Below are positions 26,567-41,083 of a DNA stretch of 64,000 bases, piece by piece (the first letter of the stretch is position 1; each line of letters opens with the position of its first letter). The notes beneath the pieces are model-generated. The model worked only from the letters and a program-made list of their open reading frames with translations, searched no databases and was not told the origin of the DNA. Position numbers and translations under genes: made by a program. Origin of the DNA: Psychrobacter sp. P2G3 (GTDB taxonomy: Bacteria > Pseudomonadota > Gammaproteobacteria > Pseudomonadales > Moraxellaceae); NCBI RefSeq assembly GCF_001593285.1, contig NZ_CP012529.1, positions 806,001 to 870,000 on the forward strand, read 5' to 3'.

Positions 26567-27265
26567 ATGAAAAATAATTCATGGATGACGATAGGCGTGG
26601 TAATAGCTAGTTTTATGTTAGCTTCCTGCCAATCTGTACCCAAAAACACCATAATCAATAAAAAGGCAGACAACACACCTAAAGTCATGATAGAGCCACA
26701 TGCAGATACAGACAGTGATGGCGTCCCTGACATTATAGATAATTGTCCGAACACTCCTAAAGGGGTAGTGGCGGATGAGTATGGCTGTCCAGTAGCGGTG
26801 AGTTTAATCGATTATCTTACGATGGAGCTACGAGTTTTCTTTGAGCAAAATAGTAATGAGCTACGAATGAAGTACTTGCCAGAAGTGGAAAAAGTAGCGG
26901 AAAAAATGCATAGCGATCCTGAGCTGGTGGTAGTCTTGTCTGGTCACCTCTCGGAACCTGAAGCTGCGCAAATATCAGTAGGTATAGACGGAAAAATGAA
27001 TCAAGTAAAAGCTGATAAACCTCCATTAGGACGTGAGCGGGCACAGGTAATAAAAACTGCTTTGATTAACAGAAATATAGCTGCTGATAAAATTTATACG
27101 TTTGATTGCGCTGATAGTATGCCGATTGCACCTAACGATACTGAGGAAGGCGCGTCAATGAACCAGCGTATTTATGGTAAAGCGTTAAAGGCAGATGATT
27201 TTTATACGGGCAGTGATAATGAGCACTCACTCACGTACTATAAAGAATTTTGTCAGCAATTTTAA
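26567..27265 (+). CDS. OmpA-like lipoprotein with TSP3-type repeat, copy 1
   Basis: A secreted lipoprotein: the signal peptide ends in the lipobox LASC with C21. After a short linker comes one calcium-binding thrombospondin-3/OmpA-hinge type motif (DTDSDGVPDIIDNCPNTP) ending in GCPV. An OmpA-like domain follows that would contact peptidoglycan (FFEQNSNELRMKYLPEVEKV; later PIAPNDTEEGASMNQRIYG). The domain departs from the classic form, since the NR pair near the end is NQR. First of three tandem paralogues, 40 bases after the hydroxylase gene and possibly co-transcribed with it. Confidence 0.8.
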   Translation: MKNNSWMTIGVVIASFMLASCQSVPKNTIINKKADNTPKVMIEPHADTDSDGVPDIIDNCPNTPKGVVADEYGCPVAVSLIDYLTMELRVFFEQNSNELRMKYLPEVEKVAEKMHSDPELVVVLSGHLSEPEAAQISVGIDGKMNQVKADKPPLGRERAQVIKTALINRNIAADKIYTFDCADSMPIAPNDTEEGASMNQRIYGKALKADDFYTGSDNEHSLTYYKEFCQQF

Positions 27266-27276
27266 AGGAAGAAGAC

Positions 27277-27873
27277 ATGACTATGCTATTAAGAAGTACG
27301 CTTGTTGTTTTAATCAGCGTCTTAACGCTATCCGCATGTCAAACGTCTGACTTGTCTAAGCAAACAAGCCAAACTATTAAGATGCCAACGGTTGTGATTA
27401 ATTCGGATAGCGACGGCGATGGCGTTCCTGATAAGTTAGATCAGTGTCCAGCTACACCTTTTAACGTGATAGTAGATGACAGAGGCTGCCCTTTTACGAT
27501 GCCTGGGGTAGGTCTAAAAATGGAATATCGCGCTTTTTTTGATAAAGATAGCAGTGAGCTGTTGCCAAAGTATCAAGCCGAGCTTGATAAGGTAGGTATG
27601 AGGTTACAAGAGTATAAAACCGCCACCATATTGATTGAAGGTCATAATTCAAGAACTGAAGTCGATAGCGCCTCTATAAACGAAGCGAATGCCTTGGCGC
27701 AAGACAGAGCGAATAAGGTTGAAAATTATTTAATATCGAAATATAACATTGCCTCTGAGCGCATCACGGCGACTGAGTATGGCGCAAGAAGACCAATTGC
27801 GCCTTCTGATAGTGAAGAGGGTAATATGTTGAACCGGCGCGTATATGCGATTGCGTCTGAACCTCAGGAATAA
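27277..27873 (+). CDS. OmpA-like lipoprotein with TSP3-type repeat, copy 2
   Basis: Second tandem paralogue. ATG 27277 with AAGGAAG just upstream puts the lipobox cysteine (LSAC) at residue 21, the same position as in copies 1 and 3. This argues against a longer TTG start at 27250 that overlaps copy 1. The motif DSDGDGVPDKLDQCP ends in GCPF. The OmpA domain is the most canonical of the three: FFDKDSSELLPKYQAEL, IEGHNSRTEVD, RITATEYGARRPIAPSDSEEG (in part) and NRRVYAI, so peptidoglycan binding is plausible here. Confidence 0.82.
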   Translation: MTMLLRSTLVVLISVLTLSACQTSDLSKQTSQTIKMPTVVINSDSDGDGVPDKLDQCPATPFNVIVDDRGCPFTMPGVGLKMEYRAFFDKDSSELLPKYQAELDKVGMRLQEYKTATILIEGHNSRTEVDSASINEANALAQDRANKVENYLISKYNIASERITATEYGARRPIAPSDSEEGNMLNRRVYAIASEPQE

Positions 27874-27944
27874 AAAACAACTTTATTACTGAAACGATTT
27901 GAGGTGACTCACCAAATCTAATTGAATAAGGACTCCAATTCGAT

Positions 27945-28661
27945 ATGAAACTAAATTTCTATCTAGCCAGCACCGTTTTTTGTAGTTCTTTGGCGTTATC
28001 GGCGTGTCAAACCACTCCAACTGCGCCGTCTAAAGATACAGCTCAACATGAAAACATCAGGACGATGCAAGCAGCGATTGATTCAGATGGTGACGGTGTA
28101 CTTGATGCTATAGACGAGTGCCCTGAAACGCCACCTAACGTAGTGGTCGATGCTAAAGGCTGTGAAATAATAATTGAGGGAGGCGAGGCGCTTGAGATGG
28201 AGTTTAGTGGATTTTTTCCATCCATGAGTAGTCAATTACCTGCTATTTATGATCCAGAATTCACAAAAATGGCAGAAAAAATCAATGAGTATCCAGAAGC
28301 CAGTGTTTTTATTTTTGGTCATGCAGCTACAAATGAAATAGATGAAGATGCTTTGGCGACTTTTAGTTTCGATTCTTTATCACGCAATCGCGCGCTAATT
28401 ATTAAGAATAATTTAGTTTTGCAACATAATATCGATGCTAAGCGTATCCGTACTTATGAGTGTTCAAATAAATTATTGGTTAAAGATACAGATTATATAA
28501 ACCCTAGCTTTAGAGCGCTTAATCTGAAAGGTCTTGAGGCAAAACAACGCCGCGCAACTTTAATGGCAAGTAGTGAAGTGCATGACTTAGAGAGTCTTGA
28601 ATATGTGTCTTATATAAGAAGATACGGTAAGTACGCTAAGCACTGTGAACCGTTCGAATAA
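27945..28661 (+). CDS. OmpA-like lipoprotein with TSP3-type repeat, copy 3
   Basis: Third tandem paralogue. Lipobox LSAC with C21, then DSDGDGVLDAIDECPETPP ending in GCEI. The OmpA-like domain keeps the FxGHA strand but has lost the terminal D-x10-R/NRR pattern that binds diaminopimelate; it reads GLEAKQRRATLMASSEV instead. Spacing to copy 2 is 71 bases, with AAGGA 12 bases before the ATG. Likely arose by duplication and is diverging; binding to the cell wall is doubtful. Confidence 0.78.
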   Translation: MKLNFYLASTVFCSSLALSACQTTPTAPSKDTAQHENIRTMQAAIDSDGDGVLDAIDECPETPPNVVVDAKGCEIIIEGGEALEMEFSGFFPSMSSQLPAIYDPEFTKMAEKINEYPEASVFIFGHAATNEIDEDALATFSFDSLSRNRALIIKNNLVLQHNIDAKRIRTYECSNKLLVKDTDYINPSFRALNLKGLEAKQRRATLMASSEVHDLESLEYVSYIRRYGKYAKHCEPFE

Positions 28662-38755: not shown

Positions 38756-39499
38756 ATGGTCGTAAGTTTGACAAGAATGCTACAGTCATTTGGGCAAGCT
38801 CAAGATGATCTGCCGACATTAGCTGCTCAAAATGCTCAGCAAATGGTTGTCAGTCAGAGTACAAAGGTCAATGATAATAACGATCAAGGAAATAGTAGGC
38901 CCTCTGTTCTTACACCTCCTGAGCGTGCAGACCGTATCTGTGCTGCGTTAGCACAGGTCAATGATATCCGCTCGTCAACGCCATTGACTGATCGCTATTT
39001 GTCCAATCGCTCTCAGATGCGCCCGATTAATAGACCACCTTTTGATCCAGATAGTTTATGGTATCTCAAACATGGAAGCTGTCCGATTATGACTGAGCTT
39101 GTTGATGTGGTTGATGAAGCCACCCTAAACGCGATGCCTATTGAGGCTGTTGCGATACTAGACCGAATTAATGGTAAGCTTAAGCGCTATCGTGAATGGA
39201 GTAGTGAGCTCAACGAGCAACAACAGCAGCAACATAATGAGCGTCAGTTTGTCATCGATAAGCTCGTGTCAGAGAGTATTCCAGAAGCGCTACATCATTA
39301 TGAGCAATTACAACGCTTTAGCCCGCATCGCACTAAGAATAATATGGTGCAAGGAAAAATGACTGCAGGTGACATGCTGACTGATCTATTCTTAGAGATT
39401 GATTACGAGCTTGATGAGCTACTAGATGAGTTGCATCAAATGGTTATGAATCGTCTTGCTTCAACGCACCGTTATGTTAAAAGCCGTACGCAAAGTTAA
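38756..39499 (+). CDS. Unknown protein, paralogue A of a three-gene family
   Basis: Hydrophilic protein without signal peptide or membrane segment. The first 110 residues are low-complexity (Q, N, S, P). From about residue 128 it carries the core shared with the next two genes: ILDRINGKLKRYREW, then ERQFVIDKLVSESIPEALHHY, then LFLEIDYELDELLDELHQM and a closing RYVKSR. The family is not known to me. The core looks like a small helical bundle. It has a poly-Q stretch (QQQQQ near 174) before the second core helix. A terminator at 39555 separates it from the next copy. Confidence 0.75.
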   Translation: MVVSLTRMLQSFGQAQDDLPTLAAQNAQQMVVSQSTKVNDNNDQGNSRPSVLTPPERADRICAALAQVNDIRSSTPLTDRYLSNRSQMRPINRPPFDPDSLWYLKHGSCPIMTELVDVVDEATLNAMPIEAVAILDRINGKLKRYREWSSELNEQQQQQHNERQFVIDKLVSESIPEALHHYEQLQRFSPHRTKNNMVQGKMTAGDMLTDLFLEIDYELDELLDELHQMVMNRLASTHRYVKSRTQS

Positions 39500-39554
39500 T
39501 ATCTATTTAGATGAGTTAGCATCATTAAACATAATCAGCTCAATACATAACAAT

Positions 39555-39585
39555 ATAAGGCTTCAATACAGCCTTATTTTTTTGT
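39555..39585 (+). terminator. Intrinsic terminator after paralogue A
   Basis: Stem ATAAGGCT (39555-39562)/AGCCTTAT (39570-39577), seven-base loop, followed by seven T. It splits paralogue A from the downstream pair. Confidence 0.88.
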
Positions 39586-39649
39586 TTAATGTTTATTTAT
39601 AATAATAAGAAGTTTCTAAATCATTCTGCTAAACAATGAGGACAATCCA

Positions 39650-40315
39650 ATGACCCAAGTAACTGCGATGTTAGTCATGTTTATTTTATACGGTGTGCTA
39701 CCAGCAGCTGGGTTATATCTAGGGTATCGTGGCATCAAAAAAGTCACTGCGCCTAAAATGCTCGAATATGAAGCGATGCCGCAGCTCGGTTATATTCCCG
39801 AAAAAAGCTTGCCAGAAGAAGTGAAAACAGCGCTTGCTCAAATTAATCAAAAAGGTGAAAAGCTTCGTGCTATCTATGGTGATACCAATAATGATGGCAA
39901 AATAGATGATAAAGATACCGTCAACGAAACATACATTATGATTCAAAATTTGATGGATAGGCATGTTCCGCTAGCAGTAGCTGACTATCGCCGCTTGCAT
40001 GACTTGGACGGTGCACTTGCTGAAAATACTAAGATTAAGCACTCTGATGTCACTGGTAAAGAGGCATTGCTTGAGGTACTTGAAACGATTAATACGCAGT
40101 TTGATGATTTGCTCAATGCTTCATATCATCAGGACGGTCAAAAGCTGCTAGCGACCAATCGATATTTACAGAAACGTTTTGATAATCCAAAGGTTGAATC
40201 AGCAAACGCCCAACAGCTTGATAAACTTGATAGTCTTGAAAACAAAGAAACTACGGACAAAGTCATTGAAAACCCTAGTAGCGAAAGCCCTAAAGCTGAA
40301 GATATTAAACTGTAA
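39650..40315 (+). CDS. Unknown membrane-anchored protein with EF-hand-like loop, paralogue B
   Basis: One N-terminal membrane helix (residues 4-27) anchors a hydrophilic domain. The shared core follows: TALAQINQKGEKLRAIYG, then YIMIQNLMDRHVPLAVADYRRL, then EALLEVLETINTQFDDLL and RYLQKRF. Between the first and second core helices is a perfect EF-hand-type loop, D78 to D89 (DTNNDGKIDDKD: D1, N3, D5, G6, I8, D12), absent from the two sisters. The C-terminal 40 residues are low-complexity. GAGG precedes the ATG. Function unknown; calcium binding is plausible. Confidence 0.75.
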   Translation: MTQVTAMLVMFILYGVLPAAGLYLGYRGIKKVTAPKMLEYEAMPQLGYIPEKSLPEEVKTALAQINQKGEKLRAIYGDTNNDGKIDDKDTVNETYIMIQNLMDRHVPLAVADYRRLHDLDGALAENTKIKHSDVTGKEALLEVLETINTQFDDLLNASYHQDGQKLLATNRYLQKRFDNPKVESANAQQLDKLDSLENKETTDKVIENPSSESPKAEDIKL

Positions 40316-40370
40316 ATGATAGGTTATATATACTAAATGGGAAATCGCCTGACTGAAAAACAAAGAGTGA

Positions 40371-40934
40371 ATGAATATGAGTATAGTATTGGGCGTTGGT
40401 ATAGCGGTTACCACGATTACGACCATCTACTTAGGTAAAAAAGGCTGGCAAGCACTACATAAAGCAGTTGGTATTACCCCAGGTATACTCGTTTATCAAG
40501 ATCCTAACGCGCCACTATCCTTATCTAGTATGACTTGGCAACAACTTAATTTAGACAACAATCATCTAAAATGCTTGTCAGATCACCAGTTACGCCAACT
40601 GCAACGTATTGATGAAAAGGTATTTGACTATCAAACCTACCAAAAAGAGTTACAAGCGCAGAAAATGACTTCTGTAGTCAATGAACAGCAGTTTATGTTA
40701 AATAAGATGCTTCAAGTTAGGTTGCCTGAAATGCTAGCCAGTCATCACTTAGCGAATATTAGTACAAGCTCTAAAAATATAAATAGTGAAAAGAAAGCAG
40801 AGGCTAGTGAGTTATTGCAACAGGTGTTAAATAATATTGAGCAGCGTTTAGATGTATTGTTAGATGAAATGGAAGCGCAGCATTTGCAAGATTTACGAGT
40901 AATGAAGAACTATATCGATAGCCACGACAGCTAA
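40371..40934 (+). CDS. Unknown membrane-anchored protein, paralogue C
   Basis: A hydrophobic N-terminus (residues 3-22, IVLGVGIAVTTITTIYLGKK) anchors the protein. The core is again present: LRQLQRIDEKVFDYQTYQKE, then EQQFMLNKMLQVRLPEMLASH, then LLQQVLNNIEQRLDVLLDEM and MKNYIDSH. It lies 55 bases after paralogue B without a terminator, so B and C are probably co-transcribed. No known domain recognised; 187 aa. Confidence 0.75.
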   Translation: MNMSIVLGVGIAVTTITTIYLGKKGWQALHKAVGITPGILVYQDPNAPLSLSSMTWQQLNLDNNHLKCLSDHQLRQLQRIDEKVFDYQTYQKELQAQKMTSVVNEQQFMLNKMLQVRLPEMLASHHLANISTSSKNINSEKKAEASELLQQVLNNIEQRLDVLLDEMEAQHLQDLRVMKNYIDSHDS

Positions 40935-40999
40935 ATACCTAGACATCTGAACATCCAAGTTGGTAATCACGTTTTGACCAATCTGTATACAAACTGCAT

Positions 41000-41040
41000 A
41001 AAAAAGCTGCCAATGATTATTCATCATTGGCAGCTTTTTT
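41000..41040. terminator. Bidirectional terminator between paralogue C and rluB
   Basis: A perfect 18-bp stem (41000-41017 with 41023-41040, core AGCTGCCAATGAT) has a five-base loop and A/T runs at both edges, serving the two converging genes. Confidence 0.93.
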
Positions 41041-41083
41041 ATGGTTTACTCCGAATCTATAGAAGATTCAAAGTGGCGTTACA

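Follow-up and report, generated by a model that had tools for sequence, protein, structure and literature searches.

The window, a stretch of 64,000 nucleotides of contig NZ_CP012529.1 of Psychrobacter sp. P2G3, holds three consecutive genes (A, B and C) whose products match no Pfam or NCBIfam family at the cut-offs of those collections. The genes share one strand and are flanked by a LysE-type gene and an rluB-like gene, both named by eye and both on the opposite strand. The features of the locus are as follows.

38756..39499, plus strand: gene A, 247 aa, with an N-terminal MVVSLTRMLxSFGQ segment, a variable linker and a C-terminal domain
39128..39496, plus strand: shared domain of A, residues 125-247, delimited by alignment to B
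39555..39577, plus strand: terminator-like stem-loop with a T run, between A and B
39650..40315, plus strand: gene B, 221 aa, with a membrane helix, a three-helix domain, an EF-hand-like loop and a variable C-terminal tail
39815..40180, plus strand: three-helix domain of B, helices of the model at residues 56-77, 93-119 and 136-177
39881..39916, plus strand: EF-hand-like loop DTNNDGKIDDKD, B residues 78-89, between helix 1 and helix 2
40371..40934, plus strand: gene C, 187 aa, with a membrane helix, a W...H...GI..G juxtamembrane segment and a three-helix domain
40395..40469, plus strand: predicted membrane helix of C, residues 9-33 of the model
40569..40931, plus strand: three-helix domain of C, helices of the model at residues 71-96, 105-131 and 139-186
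40997..41043, minus strand: stem-loop of 20 counted pairs, between the convergent gene C and rluB-like gene

The initial annotation let a terminator divide A from the B-C pair. The stem-loop is there in the window, but the division is not general, as the strict terminator pattern recurs in 16 of 72 relatives. Two neighboring regions were read by eye. Directly past the rluB-like gene, from 42547 onwards, a capsule or exopolysaccharide cluster begins with wza-, low-molecular-weight phosphatase-, wzc- and sugar-nucleotide enzyme-like genes. At 26567-28661 a D-x-D-G-x-x-D...C-P motif recurs in each of three consecutive ORFs (232, 207 and 238 aa), which resemble OmpA-type lipoproteins in tandem.

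Profile-profile comparison of the sequences confirms A, B and C as diverged paralogues, old copies of one gene, as had been proposed from inspection of the translations. All three pairs are significant over 123-133 columns (A-B, P 6.5e-14; A-C, P 7.3e-18; B-C, P 2.2e-14), and single-sequence searches detect the three proteins by one another. The ordered core drawn by eye is borne out by the profile comparison and by its conservation: L-x-x-I-x-x-K, then E-x-x-F/Y...P, and then a third helix with D and a closing Y.

A family profile is found in 109 of the 299 genomes of a Moraxellaceae sample, in two of its 16 genera. In the same sample B as query matches 103 of the 105 own-genus genomes and six of one further genus, where G022 alone is matched at the strength of a B (E 5.5e-31) and the scores of the others, 0.006 to 4e-8, are those expected of cross-matches. 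With the A profile the family is again detected in these 109 genomes; full strength (E <=1e-99) is reached in 92 of the 105 own-genus genomes, the other 11 own-genus genomes score 7e-7 to 2e-16, and those with listed places match at B or C. The family is carried by all six genomes of the second genus, and the loci of this type come from records titled Moraxella boevrei, M. macacae and, once, Streptomyces cinereus. This last record (BMPS01000024.1, titled Streptomyces cinereus JCM 3040) bears a Moraxella-type A locus, and its name or sample is probably wrong. A joint profile run on an order-level sample matches 11 of 390 genomes, none of them from outside the own genus. Within the samples searched, the three-gene expansion is specific to the lineage, and to this extent the lineage specificity suggested at the outset stands; the domain itself also occurs elsewhere, as described below.

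Gene order was followed in 77 fetched loci, in a scan keyed on A; 74 of them are Psychrobacter loci, with 60-89% identity to A, and the B of another Psychrobacter record is 82% identical to that of the window. The trio stands in tandem on one strand in 72 of the 77. In the remaining five, A is alone in four (one cut by a contig end) and B is split in one. At locus L104 (7005-7734) B is in two ORFs and C is short, a broken or badly assembled copy, and five own-genus loci (L036, L038, L039, L042 and L047) hold B and C without A. In a tree of the family B groups with the Moraxella B (support 93) and A with the Moraxella A, while C stands beside A. The grouping is by copy across lineages, which argues that the copies are older than the split between Psychrobacter and the Moraxella-type lineages.

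A fourth paralogue, D, stands apart in this tree. It is a membrane-anchored protein of 205 aa, unlinked to the trio and present in some genomes (in G074 it is on a different contig from the trio); a search of the P2G3 genome did not find it. At E 0.001 D is matched in 26 of 199 genomes, five of which are only cross-hits (6e-5 to 7e-4). One D locus is given here; further D loci are L183-L187.

L166, 4953-5570, minus strand: paralogue D

Longer forms of D, of 341-438 aa and with an additional C-terminal region of no recognised kind, occur in the own-genus genomes G008, G108, G111 and G130, which are without A, and in the Moraxella-type G050, where D adjoins an rluB-like gene.

The proteins B and C were modeled with AlphaFold2 from family alignments. 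The order of the fold is alike in the two models: a membrane helix (residues 2-33 in B, 9-33 in C), then a three-helix bundle with the helices listed above, at a mean pLDDT of 76.9 for B and 85.2 for C. The membrane anchoring that had been proposed for B and C is thus upheld by the models. Fold searches of the PDB gave no specific relative of either model; three-helix bundles are common and the matches were unspecific. The flank after the membrane helix is more positively charged than the one before it in 71 of 72 B proteins, 70 of 71 C proteins and all 120 D proteins, which by the positive-inside rule would place the domain in the cytoplasm. The three proteins are small and probably located at the inner surface of the cell membrane. 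The proposal of an envelope system survives in a narrower form, that of the inner membrane, since the domain would face the cytoplasm.

No membrane helix was found in A. Its N-terminus carries M[VI][VI]SL and nine further residues in 69 of the 77 A proteins, and the amphipathic segment of the window's A has the fourth highest hydrophobic moment of the 237 eleven-residue windows of the protein. A is probably at the membrane peripherally, through this conserved amphipathic segment. The Moraxella-type relatives of A are informative on how this came about: all three in the set of 77 have a membrane helix, and they carry a W...H...GI..G segment like that of C. Most likely, then, the anchor was kept by B and C and lost by A; of the two options left open in the initial annotation, that B and C gained or that they kept an anchor, the first is disfavored.

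In Psychrobacter the loop that links helices 1 and 2 of B reads D[TS]NNDGxIDDxD. The twelve-position EF-hand loop pattern of PROSITE is matched by 71 of 72 B proteins (two fragments below 150 aa left out), by all 120 of the database relatives listed, and by none of 77 A or 73 C proteins. The full pattern, which has a hydrophobic position 13, is matched by only 2 of the 72, since the thirteenth position is usually threonine. With the Pfam EF-hand models the best score among 63 family members was E 0.21 (EF-hand_5), with matches in three of them. The single Moraxella-type B aligned is without the loop, which implies either a gain in Psychrobacter or a loss outside it.

The domain has relatives far from this lineage. 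A search of 229 class-level genomes with the joint profile of A, B, C and D gave one strong match outside the family (E 6.2e-8) and two weaker ones (E 0.006 and 0.0085). The strong match is a 378-aa PspC-domain protein (PF04024, 5.8e-20) of the Gammaproteobacterium G1026. Its C-terminal part holds the domain twice, the copies matching one another at 4.6e-14 in a small database, and its gene is 2.3 kb from a telA (PF05816, 2e-86), with an MscS-type channel gene between. A tblastn search of plasmids with this protein returned three records. On a Sphaerotilus plasmid the row is [380 aa]-telA-vWA-[226 aa], the match being the last gene, and in Deinococcus taeanensis the domain gene follows a vWA gene. 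Among 72,556 plasmid records the Sphaerotilus domain protein matches seven (E 0.01) and the Sphaerotilus TelA 17 (E 1e-10); five records have both, at a distance of 1.6-2.3 kb (Sphaerotilus, Nonomuraea and three near-identical Variovorax). The order of a 374-380-aa-type gene, telA, vWA and the domain gene is common to Sphaerotilus, Variovorax and Nonomuraea; the Nonomuraea record is unannotated, and its frames flanking telA match the Sphaerotilus 380-aa and vWA proteins (6.3e-79 and 2.5e-97). The Variovorax telA-vWA row is followed, about 2.4 kb further downstream, by an annotated Wadjet anti-phage system (L214, 7796-10390).

These matches were examined with several profiles. Over 1331 open segments of 22 loci the profile of A, B, C and D matches five outside loci (the PspC protein, one Deinococcus, Sphaerotilus, Variovorax and Nonomuraea) at E 5.1e-12 to 5.7e-5, and nothing further at E 1e-3; this profile includes none of the seven sequences of the intermediate profile described below, and D. 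taeanensis and Curtobacterium are missed at that threshold. Without D, the profile of A, B and C matches only two of the five (5.8e-5 and 1.2e-4). A profile built without Nonomuraea and Variovorax still matches both (1.7e-22 and 1.4e-21). The intermediate profile, made of seven sequences, finds the domain in a Curtobacterium telA-TerD locus (E 8.2e-8). Compared with the joint A, B and C profile it gives 97.2% and P 3.8e-11 (reversed control, 0.24), and with the single sets P 2.1e-7 for A, 5.1e-9 for B, 1.7e-5 for C and 8.6e-6 for D (reversed controls, 0.82, 0.39, 0.12 and 0.79). By these comparisons the domain extends beyond the lineage, where it is encoded next to telA and joined to PspC. The earlier statement that no described family has this pattern holds for Pfam and NCBIfam, but it must now be set against these occurrences.

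The outside relatives differ from the trio in their arrangement. The gene of Sphaerotilus, Variovorax, Nonomuraea and D. taeanensis encodes, like the trio, a homologous C-terminal domain behind an N-terminal hydrophobic segment. This segment spans 19 residues in Sphaerotilus and 29-40 in the other three, where by eye it looks like a hairpin, while the members of the trio have one membrane helix or none; the gene is present in one copy and, in three of the four, in an operon with telA, while the trio has three copies, none linked to telA. The G1026 protein shares with the trio the domain and the membrane context, and has its own telA 2.3 kb away. Unlike the trio it has a PspC N-terminus, and the domain twice in one chain; PF04024 has no match in A, B or C.

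XpaC (PF10112, Halogen_Hydrol) is a known operon partner of telA and, like the trio, combines a membrane anchor with a C-terminal helical domain, although the anchor is a different one and the trio is without a telA operon. XpaC is reached through the intermediates: their profile gives 84.2% and P 7.3e-6 over 108 columns (reversed control, 0.031), and P 4.9e-4 with a five-sequence XpaC subset. With A, B, C, D and the intermediates merged, P is only 0.006 (reversed, 0.046). Direct comparison of the trio with 17 XpaC sequences gave P 0.048-0.27, against 0.017-0.25 for reversed decoys; the C set alone leans forward, at best with 11.6 versus 5.3 bits. A PF10112 scan matched one of 23 family members, at 16.8 bits for a gathering cut-off of 29.8. 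PF10112 is not listed for A, B or C, is not among the best 25 of 106 families for 63 family members, and has no match in the P2G3 genome. Because the direct comparison is no better overall than reversed decoys and the score is below the Pfam cut-off, we do not claim the trio as members of XpaC and read the relation as probable descent from a common domain.

TelA, a protein associated with the survival of toxic ions and of compounds that attack membranes, has one match in the P2G3 genome (PF05816, E 1.2e-90). The trio lies at 0.845 Mb of a contig of 3.32 Mb and telA at 3.244 Mb, without a physical link. This TelA shares 55% identity with the one beside the G1026 PspC protein, a grouping with a clade support of 99, and 49.5% with that of Sphaerotilus and 46.9% with that of Nonomuraea. 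It is 43.4% identical to the TelA of Arthrobacter, whose 10-kb locus is without a domain gene, and only 37.2% to Curtobacterium and 24.8% to Variovorax, though both loci hold the domain. In a tree of 15 sequences, partly chosen for having the domain nearby, it is closest, outside its own family, to TelAs linked to the domain. In the Moraxellaceae sample 107 of the 109 genomes with the family also have TelA, as do 104 of the 190 without it. TelA thus nearly always accompanies the family, but is not confined to such genomes; G043 and G276 have TelA without the trio, and G108 and G270 the reverse. In four loci from genomes that we take to be Acinetobacter (L077-L079 and L088), telA is between a 258-279-aa helical protein and a membrane protein of about 300 aa; those of the neighbors that were scanned have no family above cut-off. 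A one-sequence search at 1e-8 gave no TelA in seven included PF10112 loci and the Acinetobacter-type loci.

Envelope-stress literature, as available in excerpts, names both partners. There, xpaC is raised in an Enterococcus faecium liaR mutant and tied to CesSR (PMC10269926), xpaC-like and telA1 transcripts are up in Lactococcus overproducing membrane proteins (PMC3139573), Listeria with a telA disruption is cited as more sensitive to nisin and tellurite (PMC12791056), and sub-membrane structures are ascribed to TelA and TerF-vWA (PMC7824862).

We lean, with somewhat better than even confidence, towards the trio as a triplicated set of inner-membrane, cytoplasm-facing partners of TelA in a sub-membrane assembly, where binding to TelA, complex formation and physiological role are inferred. 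The locus would be a tandem, ancient and lineage-specific expansion of one cytoplasm-facing helical domain at the inner membrane, with B and C each held by one membrane helix and A probably peripheral, through its amphipathic segment. Together with the separately encoded TelA, the presumed partner from the TelA/Ter sub-membrane module and itself no paralogue of the three, they would form the assembly, which may support membrane or envelope integrity under stress, such as toxic oxyanions or membrane-active compounds. The loop of B may bind Ca2+ and so tune the assembly. A more elaborate version, to which we give a low probability as a whole, makes the trio a calcium-tunable, multi-subunit form of the TelA/XpaC sub-membrane module that senses ionic or membrane stress at the inner face: triplication would have split one XpaC-like partner into three subunits, B would have acquired the EF-hand-like loop, and A would have exchanged its membrane helix for the peripheral amphipathic segment.

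Other readings dispense with TelA. One membrane helix joined to a helical bundle is a common layout for scaffolds, and YhcB, a small one-helix coiled-coil protein, is a model for the view that the trio serves cell division or envelope growth as a cytoplasmic scaffold anchored in the membrane, with a function unrelated to TelA. The presence of B in 103 of 105 own-genus genomes and purifying selection would fit such a housekeeping role, as would the distance between the trio and telA in the P2G3 genome. We consider it unlikely nonetheless, for the relatives outside the lineage are repeatedly beside telA, and once on PspC, and the TelAs concerned are related. Helical sequence does give weak matches (Osmo_CC is one case here, an Acinetobacter-type telA neighbor another), and chance likeness of amphipathic helices could in principle have united non-homologous genes, within the trio or with the outside relatives. 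For A, B and C this is already contradicted by P values of 1e-14 to 1e-18 and a conserved tandem order, and with the outside relatives P is 1.7e-5 to 3.8e-11 for forward profiles and 0.12-0.82 for reversed ones; the explanation is highly improbable.

The fusion of two domain copies to a PspC domain invites yet another reading, in which the trio senses or transduces membrane stress at the inner face in the manner of Psp, working with Psp-type partners instead of TelA. A survey of Psp systems (PMC11237479, seen in part) describes PspC fusions and reads PspC associations as sensory; a term search of its main text gave 0 occurrences of TelA or XpaC. Against this reading, a single PspC fusion was seen, while four telA loci from other lineages have the domain, and neither of the two proteins from these loci that were scanned against Pfam has PspC. 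We hold it to be rather improbable.

With TelA, an unannotated domain without a Pfam or NCBIfam model gains a testable partner. Both TelA and XpaC have been linked to the survival of antimicrobials that act on the cell envelope, and their mechanisms are obscure. The trio, conserved across most of the genus and related in sequence to a gene of telA-vWA operons and to a PspC fusion, joins two envelope-stress systems that are seldom treated together, and B, as a natural variant with a predicted Ca2+ loop, may serve for probing the regulation of such a module.
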